A stretch of 64,000 nucleotides of DNA from Crossaster papposus (lineage: Eukaryota > Echinodermata > Asteroidea > Velatida > Solasteridae). Made by a program: the position numbers and the translations under genes. The notes below the pieces were generated by a model. The model made no database searches, was not told the origin of the DNA, and saw only the letters and a program-made list of their open reading frames with translations. The stretch spans positions 248,001 to 312,000 of the forward strand of contig JBAIAA010000701.1 in NCBI GenBank assembly GCA_037893245.1, given 5' to 3'. This document shows, one piece after another, positions 1 through 61,729 of this stretch. Position 1 is the first letter of the stretch. Every line of letters starts with the position of its first letter.

Positions 1-148
1 TTGGCGCCCGCCGCAGTTATGAGAAGAGGTCGGAGTTCAGAGGTCAGGACAGGAAGTGGAGGTCATAAGTTTTAAAGCCTGGTGCTCCGCCGGTAGTCAG
101 AGTAGAACGCCTATTGATTCGAGCCGTAAGAGGACGCTGTATAATTAA
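1..148 (-). mobile_element. End fragment of a second DIRS-like element
   Basis: These bases read the same as 19656-19803, the 5' (right-hand) end of the complete DIRS-like element, including the right ITR (about 17-120) and the terminal tip ending in the AATTAA core (143-148). The rest of this copy lies left of the window. It meets the repeat unit at the same base as the complete copy does at 19798-19803, so a unit upstream of unit 1 also carries the element. Confidence 0.9.
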
Positions 149-629
149 CAACACGTTACGTTACATCAAAAAGTTAATCGACATGACCTTTACTAGCTTT
201 GTAGAAAAATCTGGAAACTAAACTCACCGGAATGAAGAGCGATTTCGATCAACTGCCAATGAAAATCCAAAACTCAGAACAATCTGTAGCGCTATAAACG
301 CGAAATATCGGTCTGGCTAAGTCAAGATCACACACACCGAATAAATTAATTATGCACAGAACTGTCAGAAGAAATGTAAACAGTTGCCTTGGTTGTTTGT
401 TGACGAATAGAACATGGCGGATAAATACGTCATTCGAGTGACGCAACTAGTGTATACCATTTTTGTGTAGGGCTGTATGAACATATCCGACAAGGAAAGG
501 AAAAATTGAAAACGAAATGCAATTCGTAAATAAACATAATAAAATAGAAGAACCAAAGCCAATTGTTTTAATTAATATCAAGGACAAAAAGTTGCAGAAT
601 TATTCTACCTACCGAGTGTAAAAATAGGA

Positions 630-870
630 GTGTAGTAAAATTTTCAACGTACCTGCCCTCCTTCCTACTACAATGGTACGGCCAACATCTACCGTACCGC
701 CGGCCGGCGCGGGTTGCACACTCGATCGTTCGATCGATCGAACGCGCTATACTATGTAAAACAAAAAGACAAGGAAAGGACGCGCCCACTAGCGCCCTCT
801 AGAAACGCGTCGCGTTCTACTCGTACAGCGCGAGTGTTTACCCACCCACATCCGTGCATGTTTGTAAACA
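630..870. promoter_or_regulatory. CpG-rich block with palindromes and CTCF-like motif
   Basis: CpG dinucleotides are dense here while the surrounding unit is AT-rich. The block contains a 12-bp palindrome (698-709, CGCCGGCCGGCG), a perfect 18-bp palindrome (727-744, CGTTCGATCGATCGAACG), and CTAGCGCCCTCTAGA at 789-803, which resembles the AGCGCC-CTCT core of the CTCF motif read in reverse. It recurs at the same offset in every unit, including truncated unit 9. It could be a promoter or boundary element; no transcript start is visible. The regulatory role is inference from composition and motif. Confidence 0.35.
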
Positions 871-1127
871 TCGCTCGCTTTCGGCTATTTTTAAGCTGCA
901 CTGCGATTACTTTCCAAGCAAAATGGCATAACAAGCTGCCTCAATTTTTATGAAATTCAAACATTTCCGTTGGAATTTAACAAAAATTGGTCCCCACAAT
1001 TTAGATTCAGACTTGTGACAAATTAAAAAATCGTACGATTCATGGCACGTGTGAGAGAACATCGGATTAATAATAACGCGTGTGTGGGGAGTACATTGGA
1101 GCTATTCGTTAAAATGTAAACAAATCT

Positions 1128-1615
1128 GAACGGAGCATTAAGAAACTCACACAATTATTTAAAAAATGGCAAGATTTACAATGATGGCAAAATGGACCAA
1201 ACGACCTGGGGTGAGAAAAAATGTTAGAAGACGGAACACTGAAATCAATAAAACAATCTCTGAACAGAGCATTAAGAAGACCACACATTCAACAAATAAA
1301 TAACAAATGGACCAATAAAACGACCTGGGGAGAAAGAAAAGGGAAAAAGACGAGACACTGAAATTAATATTAACTGACATCCCTATTTGAACAGAGCATT
1401 AAAGAATTAGACCACACATTCAACAAATAAATAACAAATGGCACGATTGACAATAATGGCAAAAAGGACCAATAAAACGACCTGGGAAGTGGATACAAAA
1501 TTAAAAAAGACAGAACACTGAAATCAATTTAGAATTAGGCTATTTTTACAGAACATTAAAGAAGACCACACATTCAATAAATAAATAAATGGCAGGATTG
1601 ACTTTGGCAAAAAAA
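1128..1615. repeat. Degenerate internal tandem repeat, ~130-160 bp x 4
   Basis: Four diverged copies begin with GAAC(a/g)GAGCATTAA-like sequence at about 1128, 1262, 1389 and 1551. Each continues with an ACCACACATTCAA segment, AAATGG, CCAATAAAACGACCTGGG and ACACTGAAAT. The spacing is 134, 127 and 162 bp. Every macrosatellite unit has the block at the same offset (for example 8743-9230 in unit 2), so it predates amplification of the large unit. No coding potential was seen. Confidence 0.75.
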
Positions 1616-2270
1616 AGACACACATTTACCCTGGTGACCTCCTCCTATCCCTTGCAATAATGAAGTGTATTTCACTGCTAATATTAATAGGAAAACCGAT
1701 TATTCATACAGAAACGCAACACTGGTAAAATAAAACACGGAATGAACATGCGAGTACTTTTTATTTTACTGTATTTTATTTCAAACCCAGTTGTGACTTA
1801 TTAAAAGGGAAATGCACTTGGTACATTTGCAAAAGGGCTAGAGAAAAAATGGTTTCCAATGTTATAGACCAGTCACATATCCACTATATAAGCCAACAAA
1901 TTGTTTCCCACTATGAAAAGCAAATGCAGATTTTGTTTGGACTTTTCTTCCGCAAAACTGCTCAGGATTAATATGTTTTAATACATCATTTATTTATTGC
2001 AATTACCAACGTGAGTTGTGTAAACTCTAGTGACAATGTAAAGTGACGAGAGGTAACTGAAAGGAAATGAATGGCATAACAAGTAACGACCGTTTTGATT
2101 TGAAAGGAATTTTGCTTCTCATCGTTCTTATACTTTCCTATATTAAAAATCACTAATTCGATTGCTTTTATAATCAATTTCCAATCTGATTTACTATTTC
2201 AAGCACAGGATTTTCGGGATTTTTCTATTTGTCAGGATTAAGTATTACATGTACACAGAATAAAGATGGT

Positions 2271-2554
2271 TTTGTTTCATGGTGGGAGGGGTTGTTTCAT
2301 GTTGGGGGGGGGGGGGTTCATATTGGGGGAGGGGGGGAGGGGTTGTTTCATGGTGGGGGGGGGGTTGTTTCATGGTGGGGGGGGGGGGGGTTTCATGGTG
2401 GGAGGGGGGTTGTTTCATGGTGGGGGTTATGGGGGGGGGGGGTTATGGTAGGGGGTGGGAGGGGATTTCATGTTGGGGGGCGGTTCATATTGGGGGAGGG
2501 GGGGAGGGGTTGTTTCATGGTGGGGGGGGGGGGGGGGTGTTTCATGGTGGGGGA
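2271..2554 (+). repeat. G-rich minisatellite tract, unit 1
   Basis: This is a run of TTGTTTCATGGTGGG-type cassettes separated by homopolymer G runs of about 5 to 17 bases. The plus strand is almost free of C. The G-run lengths differ between units and account for most of the unit-length variation. The strand has clear G-quadruplex potential. It lies downstream of the kinase gene, whose transcript would read the C-rich complement. Apparent glycine-rich open frames here result from the repeat. Confidence 0.93.
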
Positions 2555-2678
2555 GATTTTTGTTCTTCATACCGGTAAATGCATCAGACAAGAAGACACC
2601 GCTAACTGCTGGAGGAGACCTGCTGCTGAAAAGGCAAGGAAAAGGTCTTGGAGCAACGGACTGGGCCTGCACGATGTT

Positions 2679-2684
2679 TTTATT
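2679..2684 (-). promoter_or_regulatory. Candidate poly(A) signal for kinase copy 1
   Basis: TTTATT on the plus strand reads AATAAA on the minus strand, about 310 nt after the kinase stop codon and about 125 nt before the G-rich tract. The motif is conserved in the other units. It is a plausible 3' end signal, unconfirmed without transcript data. Confidence 0.4.
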
Positions 2685-2992
2685 TGGACTGATAAATGTA
2701 ATTGCGCTTGCTGATAATCAGTTTGGTGAAATTGAGATGTGGTCATTTAGCAACAGAAACTGATACAAATTGAACCATGTCGAGTAGTGTAACCACATTT
2801 GGAGCATTAAATCTGCTTATTTTGTTCACCAAACTCGCAAGCTGCATGAGCACAAACACTGGAAAAGGGAAGGTAAAAGATACTCTTGAGGTGCAGAGGC
2901 TGCTGGGATTTGTTTCTACAGTACTGCTCTAAAAAGGTAGTTCTAACTTCCAGTATCTTGTCTCTTACCTCACCCTGCATTCAAATTATATC

Positions 2993-4915
2993 CTACTTCC
3001 AGTGTTTGGACATCTTCTTACAAATATCCGCCATTGTTGGACGCCTTCTAAAATCAACATTCTGGCATTTTTTTCCAACTTGCCGCAATCGTCGAATTCC
3101 TGCTGCCTTTCCGATGTTGATTAGCAGGTCTCCCAATGCATAAATTTCAGCAGGCTTGTTGAAGGGCGAGTCCCCCTCCATAACCTCTGGAGCCATCTGG
3201 GGACACTCCAGGTACATCTGGTTGATGAGATGCTCTGGAATACGGAGCCAGGGACCAGCCACCTCAAGACATGCATTGCCAAGATCAATAATCTTGGCAA
3301 GCCATCTTGTCTTCTTGCCCTCATTTGCTTTATACACAAGTATGTTGTCTGGTTTAATGTCACAGTGCACATATTCGTTGTTGTGCATGTGCAGCAAGCC
3401 CTCGCACACACGCCGTACAACACGCAGCCAGTTCTTGCGGGAGAGTGCTCCCGGGGTGCCACTCCAGTCCAGAGCATCCTGTAGAGTTGTTACCGACAGG
3501 GTGTTCTTATCGCCCACAAACTCATACAGCATCGTCCGGAGGGGCCGCTGTTCCAACACACCGTACAGCTTGGGGAACGAGGGGTGCTCTCCAATGGCTG
3601 CCACAGCTATAATCTCCTGCCAAAGTGGTCCCTCCGAATCCTGTGCCTGCAGAACCTTGGCTGCAGCTACAGTGTCATCAGGCAAACGGACTGCAGTCAC
3701 CTGAGCAAACGCCCCCTCTCCCACCATTCCACGGCACTGTCCATAGCGGTCGACCACAGCAGGCTTGATATGTCTGCAACTATACATCCTGCACCCAAGA
3801 TGAGGATGGTAGACAATCTCCACAGTGGCGGGTTTAGGAACAGCTCCTGGTGAGAGAGGCACTACTGGTGAGAAAGGTGCTTCCTGTGATGGAGCGCCCG
3901 GAGCTGACGGAGGGGCAACCTGTGACAGAGGGGCTACCTGTGACGGCGAGACGACCTGTGACGGCGGGGCTGCGTGTGACGGCGGGGCTGCCTGTGACGG
4001 CGGGGCTGCCTGTGAGGGCGGGACTACCTGTGACGGCGGGACTACCTGTGACGGCGGGACTACCTGTGACGTCGGGACTACCTGTGACGGCGGGACTACC
4101 TGTGACGGCGGGGCGGCCTGTGACGGCGAGGCTGCCTGTGACGGCGAGGCTGCCTGTGACGGCGGGACTACCTGTGAGGGCGGGACTGCCTGTGAGGGCG
4201 GGGCGGCCTGTGACGGCGAGGCTGCCTGTGACGGCGGGACTGCATGTGAGGGCGGGACTACCTGTGAGGGCGGGACTACCTGTGACGGAGAGACTGCCTG
4301 TGACGGCGGAGCTGCCTGTGACAGCGGGGGTTGCAGTGGAGTAGGGGCGTCCGGTGATGGAGGGGCTGGTGGTGAGGGAGTTGCTAATGGCGACCCAGGG
4401 GCTGCTGTAAATGGAGGGGATGCTGGCGACCCAGGGGCTGCTGATGACCCAGGGGCTGCTGATGACCCAGGAGCTGCTGATGACCCATGGGCTGCTGATG
4501 ACCCAGCGGCTGCCGATGAACTAGGGACTGCTGCCGATGGTGACCCGGTGGATTTTGCCGACACAGGGGCTGCACCTCTTTTCTTTCTATGAATGACATA
4601 TTCCAGAATGAAATGTTAAATAGTTTCAACTGTCAAATATTTTAGATTGATTCAGAATCAAGATATTTTGTCTTAATATTTTAAGTGTCCACTGCCTTTT
4701 GTTCTATAGAGGAAACTGTTGACTAACTTGTCAAACATACTTTGTGTCTTGCGGTACGTCTTACATTTTTTGTCAGGTTAAAGATTTTCTTTTCAAAATG
4801 AAGGGTTTTGAACCAATACATTCACAAATAAACAAGTAATTTATGTCAAAGGCATGCCCACTTACTTTTTATGGTAGAATATCGCACGTAGGGTTCTCCT
4901 CAGTCTTCCAGGCAT
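2993..4915 (-). CDS. SQ-repeat Ser/Thr protein kinase, copy 1 (two exons)
   Basis: My model joins exon 1 (4915-4866, ATG with A at -3) to exon 2 (4586-2993). The intron (4865-4587, 279 bp) has a GTAAGT donor and ends TTCATAG, and the phase-2 junction keeps frame, giving 547 aa. Exon 2 alone has no in-frame ATG before the kinase domain; its frame is closed by TAA just upstream of the acceptor. Residues 1-24 are very basic (a KKKKR run at 16-20, possible NLS). Residues 25-104 are Ala/Ser/Pro-rich. Residues 105-242 are 23 hexapeptides, 21 containing SQ. The kinase domain spans about 300-547: GEGAFAQV glycine loop (306-313), Lys327, Glu341, HCDIKPDN catalytic loop (424-431, Asp426), DLG (451-453) in place of DFG, APE (482-484) and a C-terminal RPT. 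All catalytic residues are present, and DIKPDN indicates Ser/Thr specificity. DLGNAC resembles the SRPK activation segment, but I cannot place the subfamily. Substrate unknown. Confidence 0.88.
3911..4324 (-). repeat. In-frame 18-bp minisatellite (23 copies) inside the kinase
   Basis: Twenty-three 18-bp repeats encode P-S-Q-(A/V)-(A/V)-(P/S) hexapeptides, residues 105-242 of the kinase. Two repeats carry His instead of Gln (PSHAVP, PSHAAP). The protein length is the same in every readable copy, so the repeat number does not vary across the array. Long open frames on the plus strand through this stretch are shadows of the 18-bp periodicity. Confidence 0.95.
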
Positions 4916-5222
4916 CTTGCAGTTAAACCCTTTAGATGGAATAAAATTAAGGACTATTAAAATAACACCAGTGTAAGGACACCTCAAGAAGTTTTATGTT
5001 TACATGATCAAATTTGGTTGCCATCACAGGGTTCCAGACTTGTAATCGAGTCATTCACATGCCACTTCACAAGTCAGTTCGGAAGTATAAAGAGGAACAA
5101 TAACAAAGGCATGATTTTGTCAAAGTTCATTTCAATAGCTTGTGAGTTGACCAGAGACTAAATAACTTGTGATTGACTTGAGTGACCTGTGGCGACTTGT
5201 GACTGCCTCAATTACAACTGTG

Positions 5223-5896
5223 CAGGGTTTCCACTGAAATCTGAAAATCAAATCCCATGACTTTTCCAGAATTACAATATGACAATTTCCATGGCATTTA
5301 TTGTAATTTTGCAGAGAAATGTTGTTTGAAAATGATACTGATGAAAAGCTGATGTTGGGCTAATCATTTGTTCGCTTTTGAAAATGAGTTTTAATGAATA
5401 ATGGCCTCCTCCTCCCCTTACAGCCATCCAATCCACCCACTTTAATATATATCAACTATACCATCAGCAAAGAAAAGACTGTCCCAAAACAGAAGAACCC
5501 CCTTCAGAATGTCAAAGTAATTCATTTGATATAAAGGGGTCACTATGCGGTCATAGCTAGCTCTGGAGGCAAGGGGCGCCAACCCTTTCAGTGTTCCAGC
5601 TCTAGTAAACCTAAAGCCAAAGATAGGTCTGCGAGTACAGTATAGAAAAATTGATGTATGTATTGGAAACTGGAAGACTGCCATAGCCACTACTAATACT
5701 ATAGACTGGCAAGGATAATGGCCTATAAATTGATCATTATTCCGATATCCCATCAAAAACGGCCCATCCAAAATAACCCTTTCGCAATCTTGATTTCCAT
5801 GGTTTTTCCAAGACTTAACCAAAAATTCCCAATTTGTCATAGCTTGTCCATGACAACTTTTCTTTCCACTACTTTTCATGACCCATGGAAACCCTA
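5223..5896. mobile_element. Possible degenerate hAT-like non-autonomous element
   Basis: The left end begins CAGGGTTTCCA and the right end is GGAAACCCTA, an imperfect inverted pair. Both sides are rich in CATGAC and TTTCCA words of the kind seen near the ends of CAGGGTTTCC-type hAT elements. No matching 8-bp target duplication is visible and no transposase is encoded. The block occurs at the same place in every full unit. A chance or older composite repeat is possible. Confidence 0.35.
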
Positions 5897-6637
5897 CATC
5901 AGACACTTCAAGTCTAAAATATGTCCAACGGCATATATGTGCAGGTCCAATTGGACCCTCTATTCTAAAGTAAACGGTAGAAAAAATGGGCCTATAATTT
6001 TAATTACATGGGAAAACAAAATTATCCATTGGAACTTAAAGGGGTCGCAACGAGAAAGGATTTATTCCCTGCCCCTTCTCTCTCTCTCTAACAAAACAAT
6101 TGTGTTAGGCCCGATAGCATAGTACTATAAAAGCAGTACGCCTACCTTTGTAATTTGTTCTGGGTTTGTTTATTAACTGTTGAAGACCTCAATTACAGTA
6201 TTTCTTAAATCTGGCTACAAATCCCAAATGGCCTTGAATATAATGTCTTTCTTACTGAGCCAAACTAGTCCCACCAAGGCCCAAGTGAAATGTTATAAAG
6301 TCCGACATTTTCCTGTTTATAGGCCTACTTAGGCTAAGCCTAAAGTTCTATACATTGAGTTTACCTACCCATTAAACAACAAATAACAAATTTGCTGGTA
6401 AATTTCTTTAGTTTTGGCATGATTTTTCGATTTTAGTGAAGTTGATGGGTAGGCCCTACCTAGCATCATAAGCATGAGTGGGGAAAATAAATGGTTTTGG
6501 TCTATCACTGTCAAAATTTGTCAACTTAATTATGCCTGCCCTTGGGTGGTTATACACTCAATCAGTCAGCCGATTAGTGTCCCAAATTTCCGGACCCCAG
6601 CTTTTTTTTTTATTATTTCGGCCTGACTAGGCTAGGC

Positions 6638-7522
6638 TAGCCCTACAAACATGGCGGTATATGGCTCTCTTTTAAAATCTGTCTTGTTACTGTCGCCATT
6701 ACCGCCCTGCCCCGACGCAATCAGTTAACACGAAGTGTCGACTGCCGAAATCCGAGAAAGTTTGACTCCAAATATCTTCCGAAATACATAAGACAGAACC
6801 CTTTCACATATACCATCGTGCTCGTGAGATTCTAGTGTTTCATAAATAACGGTCAAACTTACCGAAATCGTAAATTTGTCCATGTATGGCGTCTTCACAA
6901 ACTGGACAATATCCCGACAACGTTATAGCATGCCGCCATGTTTGTCAGTGGTGGCGCTTCCCGATCGCGAACGGTCATGGCGCCCGGCTGTATTTTGCAT
7001 AAATTAATATGTATTAGTCATTGCGCGCGTATTGAATATACATTTGAATTGTATTCCTCCGTGATACGTGCACCTGCTGCATGTTCATGGGAAAGTGTGG
7101 GCGTGACTTCAAGCCCGCAATCAAAACGCGTGACGTCATTATGAATTATGCATATGTCACGACCTCTCACACGTACACCCGATCGGGAAGCGCCACCACT
7201 GACAAACATGGCGGCGGCCGAACCATGCATGCTATAACGTTGTCGGGAAATTGTCCAGTTTGTGAAGACGCCATACATGGACAAATTTACGATTTCGGTA
7301 AGTTTGACCGTTATTTATGAAACACTAGAATCTCACGAGCACGATGGTATATGTGAAAGGGTTCTGTCTTATGTATTTCGGAAGATATTTGGAGTCAAAC
7401 TTTCTCGGATTTCGGCAGTCGACACTTCGTGTTAACTGATTGCGTCGGGGCAGGGCGGTAATGGCGACAGTAACAAGACAGATTTTAAAAGAGAGCCATA
7501 TACCGCCATGTTTGTAGGGCTA
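6638..7522. mobile_element. 885-bp long-TIR element, MULE-like, with 9-bp TSD
   Basis: The element is present only in unit 1; the empty site reads straight through in units 2-8. It starts TAGCCCTACAAACATGG and ends with the exact reverse complement. It is flanked by the 9-bp duplication AGGCTAGGC (6629-6637 and 7523-7531). The inverted arms are about 330 bp (6638 to ~6968, and ~7182 to 7522), nearly identical apart from a few substitutions and an indel of about 13 bp, around a spacer of about 210 bp. Long TIRs with a 9-bp TSD suggest a non-autonomous Mutator-like element. No transposase is present. The arms carry a CpG-rich ATGGCGGC segment and a short open stretch ending at a GTAAGT donor, so the arms may derive from a gene 5' end. 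Confidence 0.8.
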
Positions 7523-9885
7523 AGGCTAGGCCTACCCTAGCGTTAAACTTTGTTAACGTTAAATTTCACGGCGATGAAATTGTTAAGAATGAACCAGCAT
7601 GCAGCAAGCACACGACAGATAACGTTTGTCAACAGGGGGCCCAATTTGGCAACACATTCGCGACATGATAATTATTGCACGACATGCATGAGGCCAGGAA
7701 AGTCGTGCGCCACGTTTAGTGTTTACAGGCGAGACCCAAAACCCAGCACGCACGTAAAATTAACAACACGTTACGTTACATCAAAAAGTTAATCGACATG
7801 ACCTTTACTAGCTTTGTAGAAAAATCTGGAAACTAAACTCACCGGAATGAAGAGCGATTTCGATCAACTGCCAATGAAAATCCAAAACTCAGAACAATCT
7901 GTAGCGCTATAAACGCGAAATATCGGTCTGGCTAAGTCAAGATCACACACACCGAATAAATTAATTATGCACAGAACTGTCAGAAGAAATGTAAACAGTT
8001 GCCTTGGTTGTTTGTTGACGAATAGAACATGGCGGATAAATACGTCATTCGAGTGACGCAACTAGTGTATACCATTTTTGTGTAGGGCTGTATGAACATA
8101 TCCGACAAGGAAAGGAAAAATTGAAAACGAAATGCAATTCGTAAATAAACATAATAAAATAGAAGAACCAAAGCCAATTGTTTTAATTAATATCAAGGAC
8201 AAAAAGTTGCAGAATTATTCTACCTACCGAGTGTAAAAATAGGAGTGTAGTAAAATTTTCAACGTACCTGCCCTCCTTCCTACTACAATGGTACGGCCAA
8301 CATCTACCGTACCGCCGGCCGGCGCGGGTTGCACACTCGATCGTTCGATCGATCGAACGCGCTATACTATGTAAAACAAAAAGACAAGGAAATGACGCGC
8401 CCACTAGCGCCCTCTAGAAACGCGTCGCGTTCTACTCGTACAGCGCGAGTGTTTACCCACCCACATCCGTGCATGTTTGTAAACATCGCTCGCTTTCGGC
8501 TATTTTTAAGCTGCACTGCGATTACTTTCCAAGCAAAATGGCATAACAAGCTGCCTCAATTTTTATGAAATTCAAACATTTCCGTTGGAATTTAACAAAA
8601 ATTGGTCCCCACAATTTAGATTCAGACTTGTGACAAATTAAAAAATCGTACGATTCATGGCACGTGTGAGAGAACATCGGATTAATAATAACGCGTGTGT
8701 GGGGAGTACATTGGAGCTATTCGTTAAAATGTAAACAAATCTGAACGGAGCATTAAGAAACTCACACAATTATTTAAAAAATGGCAAGATTTACAATGAT
8801 GGCAAAATGGACCAAACGACCTGGGGTGAGAGAAAATGTTAGAAGACGGAACACTGAAATCAATAAAACAATCTCTGAACAGAGCATTAAGAAGACCACA
8901 CATTCAACAAATAAATAACAAATGGACCAATAAAACGACCTGGGGAGAAAGAAAAGGGAAAAAGACGAGACACTGAAATTAATATTAACTGACATCCCTA
9001 TTTGAACAGAGCATTAAAGAATTAGACCACACATTCAACAAATAAATAACAAATGGCACGATTGACAATAATGGCAAAAAGGACCAATAAAACGACCTGG
9101 GAAGTGGATACAAAATTAAAAAAGACAGAACACTGAAATCAATTTAGAATTAGGCTATTTTTACAGAACATTAAAGAAGACCACACATTCAATAAATAAA
9201 TAAATGGCAGGATTGACTTTGGCAAAAAAAAGACACACATTTACCCTGGTGACCTCCTCCTATCCCTTGCAATAATGAAGTGTATTTCACTGCTAATATT
9301 AATAGGAAAACCGATTATTCATACAGAAACGCAACACTGGTAAAATAAAACACGGAATGAACATGCGAGTACTTTTTATTTTACTGTATTTTATTTCAAA
9401 CCCAGTTGTGACTTATTAAAAGGGAAATGCACTTGGTACATTTGCAAAAGGGCTAGAGAAAAAATGGTTTCCAATGTTATAGACCAGTCACATATCCACT
9501 ATATAAGCCAACAAATTGTTTCCCACTATGAAAAGCAAATGCAGATTTTGTTTGGACTTTTCTTCCGCAAAACTGCTCAGGATTAATATGTTTTAATACA
9601 TCATTTATTTATTGCAATTACCAACGTGAGTTGTGTAAACTCTAGTGACAATGTAAAGTGACGAGAGGTAACTGAAAGGAAATGAATGGCATAACAAGTA
9701 ACGACCGTTTTGATTTGAAAGGAATTTTGCTTCTCATCGTTCTTATACTTTCCTATATTAAAAATCACCAATTCGATTGCTTTTATAATCAATTTCCAAT
9801 CTGATTTACTATTTCAAGCACAGGATTTTCGGGATTTTTCTATTTGTCAGGATTAAGTATTACATGTACACAGAATAAAGATGGT

Positions 9886-10195
9886 TTTGTTTCATGGTGG
9901 GAGGGGTTGTTTCATGTTGGGGGGGGGTTCATATTGGGGGAGGGGGGGAGGGGTTGTTTCATGGTGGGGGGGGGGGTTGTTTCATGGTGGGGGGGGGGGG
10001 GGTTTCATGGTGGGAGGGGGGTTGTTTCATGGTGGGGGTTATGGGGGGGGGGGGGGGGGGGGGGTTATGGTAGGGGGTGGGGGGGGGATTTCATGTTGGG
10101 GGGCGGTTCATATTGGGGGAGGGGGGGAGGGGTTGTTTCATGGTGGGGGGGGGGGGTGTTTCATGGTGGGGGGGGGGGGTGTTTCATGGTGGGGG
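9886..10195 (+). repeat. G-rich minisatellite tract, unit 2 (longest)
   Basis: Same cassette structure as in unit 1. This copy has an extra TGTTTCATGGTGGG cassette and a longer G run in the middle, making it about 26-35 bp longer than the other tracts. Confidence 0.93.
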
Positions 10196-10634
10196 AGATT
10201 TTTGTTCTTCATACCGGTAAATGCATCAGACAAGAAGACACCGCTAACTGCTGGAGGAGACCTGCTGCTGAAAAGGCAAGGAAAAGGTCTTGGAGCAACG
10301 GACTGGGCCTGCATGATGTTTTTATTTGGACTGATAAATGTAATTGCGCTTGCTGATAATCAGTTTGGTGAAATTGAGATGTGGTCATTTAGCAACAGAA
10401 ACTGATACAAATTGAACCATGTCGAGTAGTGTAACCACATTTGGAGCATTAAATCTGCTTATTTTGTTCACCAAACTCGCAAGCTGCATGAGCACAAACA
10501 CTGGAAAAGGGAAGGTAAAAGATACTCTTGAGGTGCAGAGGCTGCTGGGATTTGTTTCTACAGTACTGCTCTAAAAAGGTAGTTCTAACTTCCAGTATCT
10601 TGTCTCTTACCTCACCCTGCATTCAAATTATATC

Positions 10635-12557
10635 CTACTTCCAGTGTTTGGACATCTTCTTACAAATATCCGCCATTGTTGGACGCCTTCTAAAATCAAC
10701 ATTCTGGCATTTTTTTCCAACTTGCCGCAATCGTCGAATTCCTGCTGCCTTTCCGATGTTGATTAGCAGGTCTCCCAATGCATAAATTTCAGCAGGCTTG
10801 TTGAAGGGCGAGTCCCCCTCCATAACCTCTGGAGCCATCTGGGGACACTCCAGGTACATCTGGTTGATGAAATGCTCTGGAATACGGAGCCAGGGACCAG
10901 CCACCTCAAGACATGCATTGCCAAGATCAATAATCTTGGCAAGCCATCTTGTCTTCTTGCCCTCATTTGCTTTATACACAAGTATGTTGTCTGGTTTAAT
11001 GTCACAGTGCACATATTCGTTGTTGTGCATGTGCAGCAAGCCCTCGCACACACGCCGTACAACACGCAGCCAGTTCTTGCGGGAGAGTGCTCCCGGGGTG
11101 CCACTCCAGTCCAGAGCATCCTGTAGAGTTGTTATCGACAGGGTGTTCTTATCGCCCACAAACTCATACAGCATCGTCCGGAGGGGCCGCTGTTCCAACA
11201 CACCGTACAGCTTGGGGAACGAGGGGTGCTCTCCAATGGCTGCCACAGCTATAATCTCCTGCCAAAGTGGTCCCTCCGAATCCTGTGCCTGCAGAACCTT
11301 GGCTGCAGCTACAGTGTCATCAGGCAAACGGACTGCAGTCACCTGAGCAAACGCCCCCTCTCCCACCATTCCACGGCACTGTCCATAGCGGTCGACCACA
11401 GCAGGCTTGATATGTCTGCAACTATACATCCTGCACCCAAGATGAGGATGGTAGACAATCTCCACAGTGGCGGGTTTAGGAACAGCTCCTGGTGAGAGAG
11501 GCACTACTGGTGAGAAAGGTGCTTCCTGTGATGGAGCGCCCGGAGCTGACGGAGGGGCAACCTGTGACAGAGGGGCTACCTGTGACGGCGAGACGACCTG
11601 TGACGGCGGGGCTGCGTGTGACGGCGGGGCTGCCTGTGACGGCGGGGCTGCCTGTGAGGGCGGGACTACCTGTGACGGCGGGACTACCTGTGACGGCGGG
11701 ACTACCTGTGACGTCGGGATTACCTGTGACGGCGGGACTACCTGTGACGGCGGGGCGGCCTGTGACGGCGAGGCTGCCTGTGACGGCGAGGCTGCCTGTG
11801 ACGGCGGGACTACCTGTGAGGGCGGGACTGCCTGTGAGGGCGGGGCGGCCTGTGACGGCGAGGCTGCCTGTGACGGCGGGACTGCATGTGAGGGCGGGAC
11901 TACCTGTGAGGGCGGGACTACCTGTGACGGAGAGACTGCCTGTGACGGCGGAGCTGCCTGTGACAGCGGGGGTTGCAGTGGAGTAGGGGCGTCCGGTGAT
12001 GGAGGGGCTGGTGGTGAGGGAGTTGCTAATGGCGACCCAGGGGCTGCTGTAAATGGAGGGGATGCTGGCGACCCAGGGGCTGCTGATGACCCAGGGGCTG
12101 CTGATGACCCAGGAGCTGCTGATGACCCATGGGCTGCTGATGACCCAGCGGCTGCCGATGAACTAGGGACTGCTGCCGATGGTGACCCGGTGGATTTTGC
12201 CGACACAGGGGCTGCACCTCTTTTCTTTCTATGAATGACATATTCCAGAATGAAATGTTAAATAGTTTCAACTGTCAAATATTTTAGATTGATTCAGAAT
12301 CAAGATATTTTGTCTTAATATTTTAAGTGTCCACTGCCTTTTGTTCTATAGAGGAAACTGTTGACTAACTTGTCAAACATACTTTGTGTCTTGCGGTACG
12401 TCTTACATTTTTTGTCAGGTTAAAGATTTTCTTTTCAAAATGAAGGGTTTTGAACCAATACATTCACAAATAAACAAGTAATTTATGTCAAAGGCATGCC
12501 CACTTACTTTTTATGGTAGAATATCGCACGTAGGGTTCTCCTCAGTCTTCCAGGCAT
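10635..12557 (-). CDS. SQ-repeat Ser/Thr protein kinase, copy 2
   Basis: Exon 1 is 12557-12508, the intron 12507-12229 (GTAAGT donor) and exon 2 12228-10635, giving 547 aa. This is the most diverged intact protein in the array, with three substitutions from the common sequence: V187I in the SQ repeat, V382I in the kinase N-lobe/hinge region and L470F in the activation segment before APE. Catalytic Lys327, Asp426 and DLG 451-453 are unchanged, so an active enzyme is expected. It lies about 2 kb from the DIRS insertion, which does not touch the coding exons. Confidence 0.88.
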
Positions 12558-14511: not shown

Positions 14512-14572
14512 TGATTATGCAAGGGTAATTACCTGAAGTATAATCGTGATTATACAAGTCCTCTGGAGGTGA
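14512..14572. repeat. DIRS left terminal tip
   Basis: This is the 3' terminal tip of the element. It is not shared with the right end but is repeated in reverse complement in the internal complementary region at 15030-15098. Confidence 0.88.
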
Positions 14573-49503: not shown

Positions 49504-51426
49504 CTACTTCCAGTGTTTGGACATCTTCTTACAAATATCCGCCATTGTTGGACGCCTTCTAAAATCAACATTCTGGCATTTTTTTCCAACTTGCCGCAAT
49601 CGTCGAATTCCTGCTGCCTTTCCGATGTTGATTAGCAGGTCTCCCAATGCATAAATTTCAGCAGGCTTGTTGAAGGGCGAGTCCCCCTCCATAACCTCTG
49701 GAGCCATCTGGGGACACTCCAGGTACATCTGGTTGATGAGATGCTCTGGAATACGGAGCCAGGGACCAGCCACCTCAAGACATGCATTGCCAAGATCAAT
49801 AATCTTGGCAAGCCATCTTGTCTTCTTGCCCTCATTTGCTTTATACACAAGTATGTTGTCTGGTTTAATGTCACAGTGCACATATTCGTTGTTGTGCATG
49901 TGCAGCAAGCCCTCGCACACACGCCGTACAACACGCAGCCAGTTCTTGCGGGAGAGTGCTCCCGGGGTGCCACTCCAGTCCAGAGCATCCTGTAGAGTTG
50001 TTACCGACAGGGTGTTCTTATCGCCCACAAACTCATACAGCATCGTCCGGAGGGGCCGCTGTTCCAACACACCGTACAGCTTGGGGAACGAGGGGTGCTC
50101 TCCAATGGCTGCCACAGCTATAATCTCCTGCCAAAGTGGTCCCTCCGAATCCTGTGCCTGCAGAACCTTGGCTGCAGCTACAGTGTCATCAGGCAAACGG
50201 ACTGCAGTCACCTGAGCAAACGCCCCCTCTCCCACCATTCCACGGCACTGTCCATAGCGGTCGACCACAGCAGGCTTGATATGTCTGCAACTATACATCC
50301 TGCACCCAAGATGAGGATGGTAGACAATCTCCACAGTGGCGGGTTTAGGAACAGCTCCTGGTGAGAGAGGCACTACTGGTGAGAAAGGTGCTTCCTGTGA
50401 TGGAGCGCCCGGAGCTGACGGAGGGGCAACCTGTGACAGAGGGGCTACCTGTGACGGCGAGACGACCTGTGACGGCGGGGCTGCGTGTGACGGCGGGGCT
50501 GCCTGTGACGGCGGGGCTGCCTGTGAGGGCGGGACTACCTGTGACGGCGGGACTACCTGTGACGGCGGGACTACCTGTGACGTCGGGACTACCTGTGACG
50601 GCGGGACTACCTGTGACGGCGGGGCGGCCTGTGACGGCGAGGCTGCCTGTGACGGCGAGGCTGCCTGTGACGGCGGGACTACCTGTGAGGGCGGGACTGC
50701 CTGTGAGGGCGGGGCGGCCTGTGACGGCGAGGCTGCCTGTGACGGCGGGACTGCATGTGAGGGCGGGACTACCTGTGAGGGCGGGACTACCTGTGACGGA
50801 GAGACTGCCTGTGACGGCGGAGCTGCCTGTCACAGCGGGGGTTGCAGTGGAGTAGGGGCGTCCGGTGATGGAGGGGCTGGTGGTGAGGGAGTTGCTAATG
50901 GCGACCCAGGGGCTGCTGTAAATGGAGGGGATGCTGGCGACCCAGGGGCTGCTGATGACCCAGGGGCTGCTGATGACCCAGGAGCTGCTGATGACCCATG
51001 GGCTGCTGATGACCCAGCGGCTGCCGATGAACTAGGGACTGCTGCCGATGGTGACCCGGTGGATTTTGCCGACACAGGGGCTGCACCTCTTTTCTTTCTA
51101 TGAATGACATATTCCAGAATGAAATGTTAAATAGTTTCAACTGTCAAATATTTTAGATTGATTCAGAATCAAGATATTTTGTCTTAATATTTTAAGTGTC
51201 CACTGCCTTTTGTTCTATAGAGGAAACTGTTGACTAACTTGTCAAACATACTTTGTGTCTTGCGGTACGTCTTACATTTTTTGTCAGGTTAAAGATTTTC
51301 TTTTCAAAATGAAGGGTTTTGAACCAATACATTCACAAATAAACAAGTAATTTATGTCAAAGGCATGCCCACTTACTTTTTATGGTAGAATATCGCACGT
51401 AGGGTTCTCCTCAGTCTTCCAGGCAT
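49504..51426 (-). pseudogene. SQ-repeat kinase, copy 7 (nonsense at codon 106)
   Basis: The structure matches the other copies: exon 1 51426-51377, intron 51376-51098, exon 2 51097-49504. The base at 50831 is C instead of G, changing codon 106 from TCA (Ser) to TGA in the first SQ hexapeptide. Translation would stop after 105 aa, before the SQ repeat and the kinase domain. The downstream kinase frame is otherwise unbroken and has no other visible change, so the lesion is recent. An ATG near the start of the kinase domain could in principle restart translation. A base-calling error cannot be excluded. Confidence 0.85.
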
Positions 51427-54400
51427 CTTGCAGTTAAACCCTTTAGATGGAATAAAATTAAGGACTATTAAAATAACACCAGTGTAAGGACACCTCAAGA
51501 AGTTTTATGTTTACATGATCAAATTTGGTTGCCATCACAGGGTTCCAGACTTGTAATCGAGTCATTCACATGCCACTTCACAAGTCAGTTCGGAAGTATA
51601 AAGAGGAACAATAACAAAGGCATGATTTTGTCAAAGTTCATTTCAATAGCTTGTGAGTTGACCAGAGACTAAATAACTTGTGATTGACTTGAGTGACCTG
51701 TGGTGACTTGTGACTGCCTCAATTACAACTGTGCAGGGTTTCCACTGAAATCTGAAAATCAAATCCCATGACTTTTCCAGAATTACAATATGACAATTTC
51801 CATGGCATTTATTGTAATTTTGCAGAGAAATGTTGTTTGAAAATGATACTGATGAAAAGCTGATGTTGGGCTAATCATTTGTTCGCTTTTGAAAATGAGT
51901 TTTAATGAATAATGGCCTCCTCCTCCCCTTACAGCCATCCAATCCACCCACTTTAATATATATCAACTATACCATCAGCAAAGAAAAGACTGTCCCAAAA
52001 CAGAAGAACCCCCTTCAGAATGTCAAAGTAATTCATTTGATATAAAGGGGTCACTATGCGGTCATAGCTAGCTCTGGAGGCAAGGGGCGCCAACCCTTTC
52101 AGTGTTCCAGCTCTAGTAAACCTAAAGCCAAAGATAGGTCTGCGAGTACAGTATAGAAAAATTGATGTATGTATTGGAAACTGGAAGACTGCCATAGCCA
52201 CTACTAATACTATAGACTGGCAAGGATAATGGCCTATAAATTGATCATTATTCCGATATCCCATCAAAAACGGCCCATCCAAAATAACCCTTTCGCAATC
52301 TTGATTTCCATGGTTTTTCCAAGACTTAACCAAAAATTCCCAATTTGTCATAGCTTGTCCATGACAACTTTTCTTTCCACTACTTTTCATGACCCATGGA
52401 AACCCTACATCAGACACTTCAAGTCTAAAATATGTCCAACGGCATATATGTGCAGGTCCAATTGGACCCTCTATTCTAAAGTAAACGGTAGAAAAAATGG
52501 GCCTATAATTTTAATTACATGGGAAAACAAAATTATCCATTGGAACTTAAAGGGGTCGCAACGAGAAAGGATTTATTCCCTGCCCCTTCTCTCTCTCTCT
52601 AACAAAACAATTGTGTTAGGCCCGATAGCATAGTACTATAAAAGCAGTACGCCTACCTTTGTAATTTGTTCTGGGTTTGTTTATTAACTGTTGAAGACCT
52701 CAATTACAGTATTTCTTAAATCTGGCTACAAATCCCAAATGGCCTTGAATATAATGTCTTTCTTACTGAGCCAAACTAGTCCCACCAAGGCCCAAGTGAA
52801 ATGTTATAAAGTCCGACATTTTCCTGTTTATAGGCCTACTTAGGCTAAGCCTAAAGTTCTATACATTGAGTTTACCTACCCATTAAACAACAAATAACAA
52901 ATTTGCTGGTAAATTTCTTTAGTTTTGGCATGATTTTTCGATTTTAGTGAAGTTGATGGGTAGGCCCTACCTAGCATCATAAGCATGAGTGGGGAAAATA
53001 AATGGTTTTGGTCTATCACTGTCAAAATTTGTCAACTTAATTATGCCTGCCCTTGGGTGGTTATACACTCAATCAGTCAGCCGATTAGTGTCCCAAATTT
53101 CCGGACCCCAGCTTTTTTTTTTATTATTTCGGCCTGACTAGGCTAGGCCTACCCTAGCGTTAAACTTTGTTAACGTTAAATTTCACGGCGATGAAATTGT
53201 TAAGAATGAACCAGCATGCAGCAAGCACACGACAGATAACGTTTGTCAACAGGGGGCCCAATTTGGCAACACATTCGCGACATGATAATTATTGCACGAC
53301 ATGCATGAGGCCAGGAAAGTCGTGCGCCACGTTTAGTGTTTACAGGCGAGACCCAAAACCCAGCACGCACGTAAAATTAACAACACGTTACGTTACATCA
53401 AAAAGTTAATCGACATGACCTTTACTAGCTTTGTAGAAAAATCTGGAAACTAAACTCACCGGAATGAAGAGCGATTTCGATCAACTGCCAATGAAAATCC
53501 AAAACTCAGAACAATCTGTAGCGCTATAAACGCGAAATATCGGTCTGGCTAAGTCAAGATCACACACACCGAATAAATTAATTATGCACAGAACTGTCAG
53601 AAGAAATGTAAACAGTTGCCTTGGTTGTTTGTTGACGAATAGAACATGGCGGATAAATACGTCATTCGAGTGACGCAACTAGTGTATACCATTTTTGTGT
53701 AGGGCTGTATGAACATATCCGACAAGGAAAGGAAAAATTGAAAACGAAATGCAATTCGTAAATAAACATAATAAAATAGAAGAACCAAAGCCAATTGTTT
53801 TAATTAATATCAAGGACAAAAAGTTGCAGAATTATTCTACCTACCGAGTGTAAAAATAGGAGTGTAGTAAAATTGTCAACGTACCTGCCCTCCTTCCTAC
53901 TACAATGGTACGGCCAACATCTACCGTACCGCCGGCCGGCGCGGGTTGCACACTCGATCGTTCGATCGATCGAACGCGCTATACTATGTAAAACAAAAAG
54001 ACAAGGAAAGGACGCGCCCACTAGCGCCCTCTAGAAACGCGTCGCGTTCTACTCGTACAGCGCGAGTGTTTACCCACCCACATCCGTGCATGTTTGTAAA
54101 CATCGCTCGCTTTCGGCTATTTTTAAGCTGCACTGCGATTACTTTCCAAGCAAAATGGCATAACAAGCTGCCTCAATTTTTATGAAATTCAAACATTTCC
54201 GTTGGAATTTAACAAAAATTGGTCCCCACAATTTAGATTCAGACTTGTGACAAATTAAAAAATCGTACGATTCATGGCACGTGTGAGAGAACATCGGATT
54301 AATAATAACGCGTGTGTGGGGAGTACATTGGAGCTATTCGTTAAAATGTAAACAAATCTGAACGGAGCATTAAGAAACTCACACAATTATTTAAAAAATG

Positions 54401-55500
54401 GCAAGATTTACAATGATGGCAAAATGGACCAAACGACCTGGGGTGAGAGAAAATGTTAGAAGACGGAACACTGAAATCAATAAAACAATCTCTGAACAGA
54501 GCATTAAGAAGACCACACATTCAACAAATAAATAACAAATGGACCAATAAAACGACCTGGGGAGAAAGAAAAGGGAAAAAGACGAGACACTGAAATTAAT
54601 ATTAACTGACATCCCTATTTGAACAGAGCATTAAAGAATTAGACCACACATTCAACAAATAAATAACAAATGGCACGATTGACAATAATGGCAAAAAGGA
54701 CCAATAAAACGACCTGGGAAGTGGATACAAAATTAAAAAAGACAGAACACTGAAATCAATTTAGAATTAGGCTATTTTTACAGAACATTAAAGAAGACCA
54801 CACATTCAATAAATAAATAAATGGCAGGATTGACTTTGGCAAAAAAAAGACACACATTTACCCTGGTGACCTCCTCCTATCCCTTGCAATAATGAAGTGT
54901 ATTTCACTGCTAATATTAATAGGAAAACCGATTATTCATACAGAAACAACACTGGTAAAATAAAACACGGAATGAACATGCGAGTACTTTTTATTTTACT
55001 GTATTTTATTTCAAACCCAGTTGTGACTTATTAAAAGGGAAATGCACTTGGTACATTTGCAAAAGGGCTAGAGAAAAAATGGTTTCCAATGTTATAGACC
55101 AGTCACATATCCACTATATAAGCCAACAAATTGTTTCCCACTATGAAAAGCAAATGCAGATTTTGTTTGGACTTTTCTTCCGCAAAACTGCTCAGGATTA
55201 ATATGTTTTAATACATCATTTATTTATTGCAATTACCAACGTGAGTTGTGTAAACTCTAGTGACAATGTAAAGTGACGAGAGGTAACTGAAAGGAAATGA
55301 ATGGCATAACAAGTAACGACCGTTTTGATTTGAAAGGAATTTTGCTTCTCATCGTTCTTATACTTTCCTATATTAAAAATCACCAATTCGATTGCTTTTA
55401 TAATCAATTTCCAATCTGATTTACTATTTCAAGCACAGGATTTTCGGGATTTTTCTATTTGTCAGGATTAAGTATTACATGTACACAGAATAAAGATGGT

Positions 55501-55780
55501 TTTGTTTCATGGTGGGAGGGGTTGTTTCATGTTGGGGGGGGGGGGGGTTCATATTGGGGGAGGGGGGGAGGGGTTGTTTCATGGTGGGGGGGGGGGTTGT
55601 TTCATGGTGGGGGGGGGGGGTTTCATGGTGGGAGGGGGGTTGTTTCATGGTGGGGGTTATGGGGGGGGGGGTTATGGTAGGGGGTGGGGGGGGATTTCAT
55701 ATTGGGGGGCGGTTCATATTGGGGGAGGGGGGGAGGGGTTGTTTCATGGTGGGGGGGGGGGGGGTGTTTCATGGTGGGGG
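55501..55780 (+). repeat. G-rich minisatellite tract, unit 8
   Basis: Same cassette order as in unit 1. One cassette has a private G-to-A change. Confidence 0.92.
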
Positions 55781-56219
55781 AGATTTTTGTTCTTCATACC
55801 GGTAAATGCATCAGACAAGAAGACACCGCTAACTGCTGGAGGAGACCTGCTGCTGAAAAGGCAAGGAAAAGGTCTTGGAGCAACGGACTGGGCCTGCATG
55901 ATGTTTTTATTTGGACTGATAAATGTAATTGCGCTTGCTGATAATCAGTTTGGTGAAATTGAGATGTGGTCATTTAGCAACAGAAACTGATACAAATTGA
56001 ACCATGTCGAGTAGTGTAACCACATTTGGAGCATTAAATCTGCTTATTTTGTTCACCAAACTCGCAAGCTGCATGAGCACAAACACTGGAAAAGGGAAGG
56101 TAAAAGATACTCTTGAGGTGCAGAGGCTGCTGGGATTTGTTTCTACAGTACTGCTCTAAAAAGGTAGTTCTAACTTCCAGTATCTTGTCTCTTACCTCAC
56201 CCTGCATTCAAATTATATC

Positions 56220-58142
56220 CTACTTCCAGTGTTTGGACATCTTCTTACAAATATCCGCCATTGTTGGACGCCTTCTAAAATCAACATTCTGGCATTTTTT
56301 TCCAACTTGCCGCAATCGTCGAATTCCTGCTGCCTTTCCGATGTTGATTAGCAGGTCTCCCAATGCATAAATTTCAGCAGGCTTGTTGAAGGGCGAGTCC
56401 CCCTCCATAACCTCTGGAGCCATCTGGGGACACTCCAGGTACATCTGGTTGATGAGATGCTCTGGAATACGGAGCCAGGGACCAGCCACCTCAAGACATG
56501 CATTGCCAAGATCAATAATCTTGGCAAGCCATCTTGTCTTCTTGCCCTCATTTGCTTTATACACAAGTATGTTGTCTGGTTTAATGTCACAGTGCACATA
56601 TTCGTTGTTGTGCATGTGCAGCAAGCCCTCGCACACACGCCGTACAACACGCAGCCAGTTCTTGCGGGAGAGTGCTCCCGGGGTGCCACTCCAGTCCAGA
56701 GCATCCTGTAGAGTTGTTACCGACAGGGTGTTCTTATCGCCCACAAACTCATACAGCATCGTCCGGAGGGGCCGCTGTTCCAACACACCGTACAGCTTGG
56801 GGAACGAGGGGTGCTCTCCAATGGCTGCCACAGCTATAATCTCCTGCCAAAGTGGTCCCTCCGAATCCTGTGCCTGCAGAACCTTGGCTGCAGCTACAGT
56901 GTCATCAGGCAAACGGACTGCAGTCACCTGAGCAAACGCCCCCTCTCCCACCATTCCACGGCACTGTCCATAGCGGTCGACCACAGCAGGCTTGATATGT
57001 CTGCAACTATACATCCTGCACCCAAGATGAGGATGGTAGACAATCTCCACAGTGGCGGGTTTAGGAACAGCTCCTGGTGAGAGAGGCACTACTGGTGAGA
57101 AAGGTGCTTCCTGTGATGGAGCGCCCGGAGCTGACGGAGGGGCAACCTGTGACAGAGGGGCTACCTGTGACGGCGAGACGACCTGTGACGGCGGGGCTGC
57201 GTGTGACGGCGGGGCTGCCTGTGACGGCGGGGCTGCCTGTGAGGGCGGGACTACCTGTGACGGCGGGACTACCTGTGACGGCGGGACTACCTGTGACGTC
57301 GGGACTACCTGTGACGGCGGGACTACCTGTGACGGCGGGGCGGCCTGTGACGGCGAGGCTGCCTGTGACGGCGAGGCTGCCTGTGACGGCGGGACTACCT
57401 GTGAGGGCGGGACTGCCTGTGAGGGCGGGGCGGCCTGTGACGGCGAGGCTGCCTGTGACGGCGGGACTGCATGTGAGGGCGGGACTACCTGTGAGGGCGG
57501 GACTACCTGTGACGGAGAGACTGCCTGTGACGGCGGAGCTGCCTGTGACAGCGGGGGTTGCAGTGGAGTAGGGGCGTCCGGTGATGGAGGGGCTGGTGGT
57601 GAGGGAGTTGCTAATGGCGACCCAGGGGCTGCTGTAAATGGAGGGGATGCTGGCGACCCAGGGGCTGCTGATGACCCAGGGGCTGCTGATGACCCAGGAG
57701 CTGCTGATGACCCATGGGCTGCTGATGACCCAGCGGCTGCCGATGAACTAGGGACTGCTGCCGATGGTGACCCGGTGGATTTTGCCGACACAGGGGCTGC
57801 ACCTCTTTTCTTTCTATGAATGACAGATTCCAGAATGAAATGTTAAATAGTTTCAACTGTCAAATATTTTAGATTGATTCAGAATCAAGATATTTTGTCT
57901 TAATATTTTAAGTGTCCACTGCCTTTTGTTCTATAGAGGAAACTGTTGACTAACTTGTCAAACATACTTTGTGTCTTGCGGTACGTCTTACATTTTTTGT
58001 CAGGTTAAAGATTTTCTTTTCAAAATGAAGGGTTTTGAACCAATACATTCACAAATAAACAAGTAATTTATGTCAAAGGCATGCCCACTTACTTTTTATG
58101 GTAGAATATCGCACGTAGGGTTCTCCTCAGTCTTCCAGGCAT
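56220..58142 (-). CDS. SQ-repeat Ser/Thr protein kinase, copy 8
   Basis: Exon 1 is 58142-58093, the intron 58092-57814 (private change at 57826, 13 nt inside the intron from the acceptor, which adds a pyrimidine) and exon 2 57813-56220. The predicted protein is identical to copy 1. It is the last kinase copy; unit 9 stops before its kinase. Confidence 0.88.
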
Positions 58143-60090
58143 CTTGCAGTTAAACCCTTTAGATGGAATAAAATTAAGGACTATTAAAATAACACCAGTG
58201 TAAGGACACCTCAAGAAGTTTTATGTTTACATGATCAAATTTGGTTGCCATCACAGGGTTCCAGACTTGTAATCGAGTCATTCACATGCCACTTCACAAG
58301 TCAGTTCGGAAGTATAAAGAGGAACAATAACAAAGGCATGATTTTGTCAAAGTTCATTTCAATAGCTTGTGAGTTGACCAGAGACTAAATAACTTGTGAT
58401 TGACTTGAGTGACCTGTGGTGACTTGTGACTGCCTCAATTACAACTGTGCAGGGTTTCCACTGAAATCTGAAAATCAAATCCCATGACTTTTCCAGAATT
58501 ACAATATGACAATTTCCATGGCATTTATTGTAATTTTGCAGAGAAATGTTGTTTGAAAATGATACTGATGAAAAGCTGATGTTGGGCTAATCATTTGTTC
58601 GCTTTTGAAAATGAGTTTTAATGAATAATGGCCTCCTCCTCCCCTTACAGCCATCCAATCCACCCACTTTAATATATATCAACTATACCATCAGCAAAGA
58701 AAAGACTGTCCCAAAACAGAAGAACCCCCTTCAGAATGTCAAAGTAATTCATTTGATATAAAGGGGTCACTATGCGGTCATAGCTAGCTCTGGAGGCAAG
58801 GGGCGCCAACCCTTTCAGTGTTCCAGCTCTAGTAAACCTAAAGCCAAAGATAGGTCTGCGAGTACAGTATAGAAAAATTGATGTATGTATTGGAAACTGG
58901 AAGACTGCCATAGCCACTACTAATACTATAGACTGGCAAGGATAATGGCCTATAAATTGATCATTATTCCGATATCCCATCAAAAACGGCCCATCCAAAA
59001 TAACCCTTTCGCAATCTTGATTTCCATGGTTTTTCCAAGACTTAACCAAAAATTCCCAATTTGTCATAGCTTGTCCATGACAACTTTTCTTTCCACTACT
59101 TTTCATGACCCATGGAAACCCTACATCAGACACTTCAAGTCTAAAATATGTCCAACGGCATATATGTGCAGGTCCAATTGGACCCTCTATTCTAAAGTAA
59201 ACGGTAGAAAAAATGGGCCTATAATTTTAATTACATGGGAAAACAAAATTATCCATTGGAACTTAAAGGGGTCGCAACGAGAAAGGATTTATTCCCTGCC
59301 CCTTCTCTCTCTCTCTAACAAAACAATTGTGTTAGGCCCGATAGCATAGTACTATAAAAGCAGTACGCCTACCTTTGTAATTTGTTCTGGGTTTGTTTAT
59401 TAACTGTTGAAGACCTCAATTACAGTATTTCTTAAATCTGGCTACAAATCCCAAATGGCCTTGAATATAATGTCTTTCTTACTGAGCCAAACTAGTCCCA
59501 CCAAGGCCCAAGTGAAATGTTATAAAGTCCGACATTTTCCTGTTTATAGGCCTACTTAGGCTAAGCCTAAAGTTCTATACATTGAGTTTACCTACCCATT
59601 AAACAACAAATAACAAATTTGCTGGTAAATTTCTTTAGTTTTGGCATGATTTTTCGATTTTAGTGAAGTTGATGGGTAGGCCCTACCTAGCATCATAAGC
59701 ATGAGTGGGGAAAATAAATGGTTTTGGTCTATCACTGTCAAAATTTGTCAACTTAATTATGCCTGCCCTTGGGTGGTTATACACTCAATCAGTCAGCCGA
59801 TTAGTGTCCCAAATTTCCGGACCCCAGCTTTTTTTTTTATTATTTCGGCCTGACTAGGCTAGGCCTACCCTAGCGTTAAACTTTGTTAACGTTAAATTTC
59901 ACGGCGATGAAATTGTTAAGAATGAACCAGCATGCAGCAAGCACACGACAGATAACGTTTGTCAACAGGGGGCCCAATTTGGCAACACATTCGCGACATG
60001 ATAATTATTGCACGACATGCATGAGGCCAGGAAAGTCGTGCGCCACGTTTAGTGTTTACAGGCGAGACCCAAAACCCAGCACGCACGTAA

Positions 60091-61729
60091 AATTAACAAC
60101 ACGTTACGTTACATCAAAAAGTTAATCGACATGACCTTTACTAGCTTTGTAGAAAAATCTGGAAACTAAACTCACCGGAATGAAGAGCGATTTCGATCAA
60201 CTGCCAATGAAAATCCAAAACTCAGAACAATCTGTAGCGCTATAAACGCGAAATATCGGTCTGGCTAAGTCAAGATCACACACACCGAATAAATTAATTA
60301 TGCACAGAACTGTCAGAAGAAATGTAAACAGTTGCCTTGGTTGTTTGTTGACGAATAGAACATGGCGGATAAATACGTCATTCGAGTGACGCAACTAGTG
60401 TATACCATTTTTGTGTAGGGCTGTATGAACATATCCGACAAGGAAAGGAAAAATTGAAAACGAAATGCAATTCGTAAATAAACATAATAAAATAGAAGAA
60501 CCAAAGCCAATTGTTTTAATTAATATCAAGGACAAAAAGTTGCAGAATTATTCTACCTACCGAGTGTAAAAATAGGAGTGTAGTAAAATTTTCAACGTAC
60601 CTGCCCTCCTTCCTACTACAATGGTACGGCCAACATCTACCGTACCGCCGGCCGGCGCGGGTTGCACACTCGATCGTTCGATCGATCGAACGCGCTATAC
60701 TATGTAAAACAAAAAGACAAGGAAATGACGCACCCACTAGCGCCCTCTAGAAACGCGTCGCGTTCTACTCGTACAGCGCGAGTGTTTACCCACCCACATC
60801 CGTGCATGTTTGTAAACATCGCTCGCTTTCGGCTATTTTTAAGCTGCACTGCGATTACTTTCCAAGCAAAATGGCATAACAAGCTGCCTCAATTTTTATG
60901 AAATTCAAACATTTCCGTTGGAATTTAACAAAAATTGGTCCCCACAATTTAGATTCAGACTTGTGACAAATTAAAAAATCGTACGATTCATGGCACGTGT
61001 GAGAGAACATCGGATTAATAATAACGCGTGTGTGGGGAGTACATTGGAGCTATTCGTTAACATGTAAACAAATCTGAACGGAGCATTAAGAAACTCACAC
61101 AATTATTTAAAAAATGGCAAGATTTACAATGATGGCAAAATGGACCAAACGACCTGGGGTGAGAGAAAATGTTAGAAGACGGAACACTGAAATCAATAAA
61201 ACAATCTCTGAACAGAGCATTAAGAAGACCACACATTCAACAAATAAATAACAAATGGACCAATAAAACGACCTGGGGAGAAAGAAAAGGGAAAAAGACG
61301 AGACACTGAAATTAATATTAACTGACATCCCTATTTGAACAGAGCATTAAAGAATTAGACCACACATTCAACAAATAAATAACAAATGGCACGATTGACA
61401 ATAATGGCAAAAAGGACCAATAAAACGACCTGGGAAGTGGATACAAAATTAAAAAAGACAGAACACTGAAATCAATTTAGAATTAGGCTATTTTTACAGA
61501 ACATTAAAGAAGACCACACATTCAATAAATAAATAAATGGCAGGATTGACTTTGGCAAAAAAAAGACACACATTTACCCTGGTGACCTCCTCCTATCCCT
61601 TGCAATAATGAAGTGTATTTCACTGCTAATATTAATAGGAAAACCGATTATTCATACAGAAACAACACTGGTAAAATAAAACACGGAATGAACATGCGAG
61701 TACTTTTTATTTTACTGTATTTTATTTCA
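60091..61729. repeat. Macrosatellite unit 9, truncated (1,639 bp)
   Basis: It matches the first quarter of a unit, including the CpG-rich block and the internal ~130-160-bp repeat. It then departs from the consensus at TTTATTTCA/TATGGC (about 61729). It lacks the G-rich tract and the kinase. It carries GACGCACCC (as unit 5) and the GC deletion (as units 7 and 8). This is the right edge of the array. Confidence 0.96.

Follow-up and report, generated by a model that had tools for sequence, protein, structure and literature searches.

A segment of 6.7 kb bearing a complete two-exon protein kinase gene is repeated head to tail across most of the window (the whole stretch of DNA analysed, 64,000 bases, 43% GC and without N). 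The array is quite likely a young gene-bearing macrosatellite whose copies owe their near-identity to recent duplication, combined with unequal exchange or gene conversion. It combines head-to-tail units of kilobase size, high identity between units and a complete gene in each, with the reading frame full in seven of eight. From this standpoint, a segment comprising the kinase gene and several kilobases of flank would have been multiplied head to tail, its copies would have been made alike by recent duplication plus unequal exchange or gene conversion, and each copy would be transcribed from its own upstream region.

Layout and limits of the array

Self-comparison of the window gave dominant repeat periods of 6713-6719 bp, strongest at about 6714-6716 bp. 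Unit 5 (35000-41715) served as the reference for alignment and coordinates. In this register, units 1 to 8 occupy, on the plus strand, 1916-9530, 9531-21570, 21571-28285, 28286-34999, 35000-41715, 41716-48432, 48433-55145 and 55146-61729. The eight gene-bearing units thus run head to tail from 1916 to 61729, broken only by two inserts, and about 8.25 units are in view. Unit 1 contains an insert of 885 bp, and unit 2 carries a larger one, about 5.3 kb long. With the inserts removed, units 1 to 7 measure 6713-6748 bp (unit 1 being 6721 bp after subtraction of its insert and one target duplication, and unit 2 being 6748 bp) and unit 8 measures 6584 bp. A chance origin of repeats this long and this alike is ruled out. 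The earlier note had counted eight head-to-tail units of about 6.7 kb plus a partial one, a count that is right in total length, although in the reference register 132 bp are missing from the right end of the final unit.

To the left of unit 1 lies the tail of a further unit (unit 0, 139-1915, plus strand), which corresponds to unit positions 4940-6716 and matches the reference unit at 99.8%. Window positions 1-200 are identical to 19656-19855 with zero mismatches, which identifies positions 1-138 as the end of a DIRS-like insert of the kind present in unit 2. This copy occupies the corresponding site of a unit that is cut by the left window edge. The left limit is accordingly the edge of this element and not the edge of the array, which extends past the left end of the window. 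Of the extent of 143 to 61729 given in the earlier note, the right end stands, as the array stops at 61729; the left end falls at 139 by alignment and does not bound the array. At the right end the array is followed by an AT-rich flank (61730-62201) with a 149-bp tandem repeat (61755-62175, 2.8 copies, 93% match). Further out, the plus strand at 62548-62811 holds an 87-aa open frame whose Pfam matches are all sub-threshold. Rfam (gathering scores) and ARAGORN searches gave no matches.

The kinase gene and its predicted product

Each of the eight units contains one two-exon gene on the minus strand with a predicted product of 547 aa, and all eight copies share their GT donor and AG acceptor. 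The gene model is a prediction from reading frame and splice signals, and more upstream exons are possible. The copy in unit 5 (36072-37994) has an exon 1 of 50 coding bases starting with ATG (37945-37994), a 279-bp intron (37666-37944) and the rest of the frame in exon 2 (36072-37665), with an AATAAA about 310 bases past the stop codon. The other complete copies, each of 547 aa, lie in unit 1 (2993-4915; exon 1 4866-4915, exon 2 2993-4586), unit 2 (10635-12557; exon 1 12508-12557, exon 2 10635-12228; three private missense changes), unit 3 (22642-24564), unit 4 (29356-31278), unit 6 (42786-44708; one private missense change) and unit 8 (56220-58142). In unit 7 the gene starts with an ATG at 51426 and is interrupted by a single nonsense substitution at codon 106, giving a stop after 105 aa (50830-51426, minus strand), with the remainder further left in the unit. 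A length change in the 18-bp coding repeat, the boundaries of which differ between copies, was considered as the cause and dropped in favour of this one substitution. The observations agree with the proposal that every unit holds a complete two-exon kinase gene and that seven of eight copies keep the complete protein. Separately, a private substitution of unit 8 at 57826 (unit 5 position 37678) lies 13 bases before exon 2, near the intron acceptor.

The predicted protein has a basic start, followed by long Ser/Ala/Pro-rich repeats and a kinase domain at the end. The largest part of the repeats is encoded by a 410-bp array of 18-bp units (in unit 5, 36998-37407, minus strand, 22.8 copies) in the Pro/Ser-rich part. 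The exon 2 frame matches Pfam PF00069 (Pkinase) at E 9.1e-21, scoring 74.9 bits where the cut-off is 31.7, and all four Pfam matches of the protein are to kinase families, PF07714 also being above its cut-off and the other two below. Reading the translation by eye, we recognize a GEGAFAQV loop, an AAAK lysine, HCDIKPDN, DLG and APE, which are the usual catalytic motifs, with HCD in place of HRD and DLG in place of DFG. By eye, too, the last conserved motifs seem to be separated by a short stretch. A PDB search (E 0.001) returned 286 distinct sequences, headed by twitchin (E 1.2e-10), and the best 60 of the 286 are scattered over twitchin, CDK6, GCN2, CDPK, PknB and others; this spread over many kinase groups assigns no family beyond Pkinase. 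The protein also has seven NCBIfam matches, all of which fall far under their cut-offs. A single-sequence structure model of the protein is poor (mean pLDDT 44.1). The protein is presumably an active kinase that is unclassified; it would act on Ser/Thr, and its Pro-rich tail would be disordered.

A search of a viral contigs collection with the kinase domain (253 aa), as a single-protein query that detects close relatives only, found no relatives. Against genome contigs the domain gave 14 pattern-matching stretches, one of which encodes a weak relative in an uncultured Myxococcales contig (28% identity, query residues 149-234 of 253); we set this match aside as general kinase similarity. In neither the viral nor the prokaryotic collections did this single-protein query detect a close kinase relative that would testify to conservation of the frame over time.

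Differences and probable exchange between units

Alignment of the eight units without their two inserts gave 34 substitution columns, of which 27 were kept; of the seven dropped, five lie in a G-rich minisatellite and two beyond 41584. The mean pairwise difference outside the minisatellite is 0.117% across the 28 pairs, with a range of 3-14 differences. This agrees with the earlier description of units that differ by scattered bases only, to which the inserts in two units are to be added. Gaps of 31 bp in unit 2 look like an alignment slip inside a repeat. The minisatellite lies 3' of the gene, once in each of the eight units (in unit 5, 35356-35632, plus strand), and may assist misalignment of copies. 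Its longest G run is 13-22 bases per unit, and there are 4-17 G-quadruplex pattern matches per unit.

Near-identical units are where assemblers err, and one might suppose that an assembler had copied one or two real units. This is difficult to reconcile with the presence of at least one private substitution in each of the eight units, with longest G runs that differ between units, and with two inserts of restricted distribution, one confined to unit 1 and the other to units 0 and 2. We consider such an artefact very unlikely.

The smaller insert, present in unit 1 only (6638-7522), measures 885 bp and has inverted arms that are about 340-355 bp long and 95% alike. It is flanked on both sides by the 9-bp target duplication AGGCTAGGC (6629-6637 and 7523-7531). 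Long terminal inverted repeats combined with a target duplication of this length are marks of Mutator-like elements. The insert resembles such an element and, at 885 bp with such long arms, would be a non-autonomous one.

The larger insert is a DIRS-like tyrosine-recombinase retrotransposon in unit 2 (14512-19793, minus strand, with edges ambiguous by about 10 bp). It has three long minus-strand frames, two of which match Pfam RVT_1 (E 8.5e-29) and Phage_integrase (E 4.4e-8); the third, in the gag position, has no Pfam match. A Pfam methyltransferase match is absent at E 0.1, the weak match being to PCIF1_WW only (E 0.049), and no relatives of the pol frame were found in the viral contigs collection with a single-protein query, which detects close relatives only. 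The termini are inverted (14549-14676 versus 19672-19800), there are internal complementary repeats (15030-15108 versus 14502-14580, and 15099-15139 versus 19763-19803), and no clear target duplication was found at the insert. Inverted termini, internal complementary repeats and the lack of a clear target duplication are traits described for DIRS1-like elements (PMC3266345). Together with the predicted spliceosomal intron, an element of this type points to a eukaryotic host, tentatively an animal. Units 3 to 8 provide insert-free sites at both positions, unit 2 at that of the smaller insert and unit 1 at that of the larger.

Shared markers bear on the relations between units. In reference-unit coordinates, 40578 is G in units 0, 2 and 7, 40584 is A in units 4 and 8, and a 2-bp deletion at 41515 is present in units 6, 7 and 8; a further marker, at 39942, is shared by units 0 and 2 at the DIRS edge. 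The deletion at 41515 occurs in all four combinations with 40578 and likewise with 40584, which requires either exchange between units or recurrent mutation; 40578 and 40584 occur in three combinations only. Recurrent mutation is possible at 40584, which lies within a CpG, and, with only 27 filtered substitution columns, three shared markers carry the whole signal of exchange. The DIRS-like insert occupies the same site in units 0 and 2 and is absent from unit 1 between them. These two units share 40578 and carry further changes in the same region, two in unit 2 (40824 and 41303) and one in unit 0 (41017). This pattern fits block duplication or conversion inside the array. Taken together, the copy-specific insertions, private substitutions and incompatible marker patterns suggest that the array is real and that its units have exchanged sequence. 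The alternative, raised earlier, of a very young or homogenising array fits the mean divergence, the intact frames and the incompatible markers, and it would appear to be through exchange, and not recency alone, that the copies are alike.

Selection among copies and comparison with known systems

Differences between units affect 5 of 1644 coding positions and 22 of 4619 non-coding positions (Fisher p 0.51). All five coding differences change the protein (four missense and one nonsense), and the probability of seeing no synonymous change without selection is 0.22; with five coding changes only, the comparison has little power in either direction. There is no sign of purifying selection among the copies, at this low power.

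These counts bear on two further explanations of the array. One is that it was amplified and kept because a higher kinase dose brings a benefit, perhaps in germ line, embryo or defence. The whole frame is kept in seven of the eight copies, and the long flanks of the repeated unit could hold a promoter; yet every coding difference alters the protein, and the coding sequence shows no deficit in rate, few as the counts are. We regard this explanation as unlikely, and the strong dosage amplification put forward in the earlier note finds no backing in these counts, which give little power. The other explanation sees in the array a satellite that is for the most part silent or selfish, with duplications so recent that its genes have stayed intact for that reason alone. 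At a divergence of 0.12% there has been little time for decay; a stop has already arisen in one of the eight genes, transposons have entered two units and a purifying signal is absent among the copies. Against this, the frame of 547 aa was open in the ancestral unit and contained kinase motifs, which points to descent from a working gene. We give the silent satellite appreciable weight, though short of even chances. For the young macrosatellite homogenised by exchange that we favour, present-day copy number is most likely under weak selection or none.

Several known systems resemble this array in layout. D4Z4 likewise consists of gene-bearing tandem units, although its product DUX4 is a transcription factor, a homeobox protein, whereas the gene here is a two-exon kinase. 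TOR is itself a kinase. Its Y-linked copies in Callosobruchus maculatus likewise represent copy-number variation of a kinase gene, but they are a few copies of a conserved gene and not a homogeneous array of 6.7-kb units (PMC10414808). Macrosatellites with coding units have been described in humans, where they vary in length (PMC3599962). Among them, RS447 (USP17, human 4p16.1) consists of tandem units of 4.7 kb, 20-103 of them in a study quoted there, and is similar in encoding an enzyme within units of several kilobases; that enzyme is a deubiquitinase, whereas here all four Pfam matches are to kinase families. The same text describes CT47, which encodes a cancer testis antigen, and the PRR20 array (MSR FLJ40296), which has 5-20 units in 11 individuals and is similar in being a small macrosatellite with a proline-rich product, with no kinase domain mentioned for PRR20 there (PMC3599962). 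Stellate and Su(Ste) of Drosophila melanogaster are likewise tandem multicopy genes with a link to a kinase system, and Su(Ste) repeats carry a transposon insertion; they differ in that Stellate encodes a protein homologous to the regulatory beta subunit of CK2, is sex-linked and is repressed by piRNAs (PMC7874207).

The kinase domain inside a homogeneous macrosatellite is the distinctive point of this array, which is otherwise laid out like known systems. Among the matches listed from the open-licence PMC literature (titles and abstract starts) there was no kinase-encoding macrosatellite, and we do not claim that none exists. The novelty suggested in the earlier note is smaller than implied: an enzyme-encoding macrosatellite, RS447 (PMC3599962), and tandem Stellate genes (PMC7874207) have already been described. 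By analogy with the Stellate layout, and with a catalytic kinase domain in its place, the array might be a germ-line system, polymorphic in copy number, that tunes a trait or biases transmission through its dose of active kinase, a proposal that we consider highly improbable.

If the copies are silent, the array is an ordinary young satellite. By their private markers, comprising the two transposon insertions, single substitutions and G-tract lengths, the units can be told apart in long reads and, in part, in transcripts, which makes exchange between units and the use of single copies directly measurable. With a kinase gene in every unit, the array would allow testing whether large gene-bearing satellites cause individuals to differ in their dose of a signalling enzyme.
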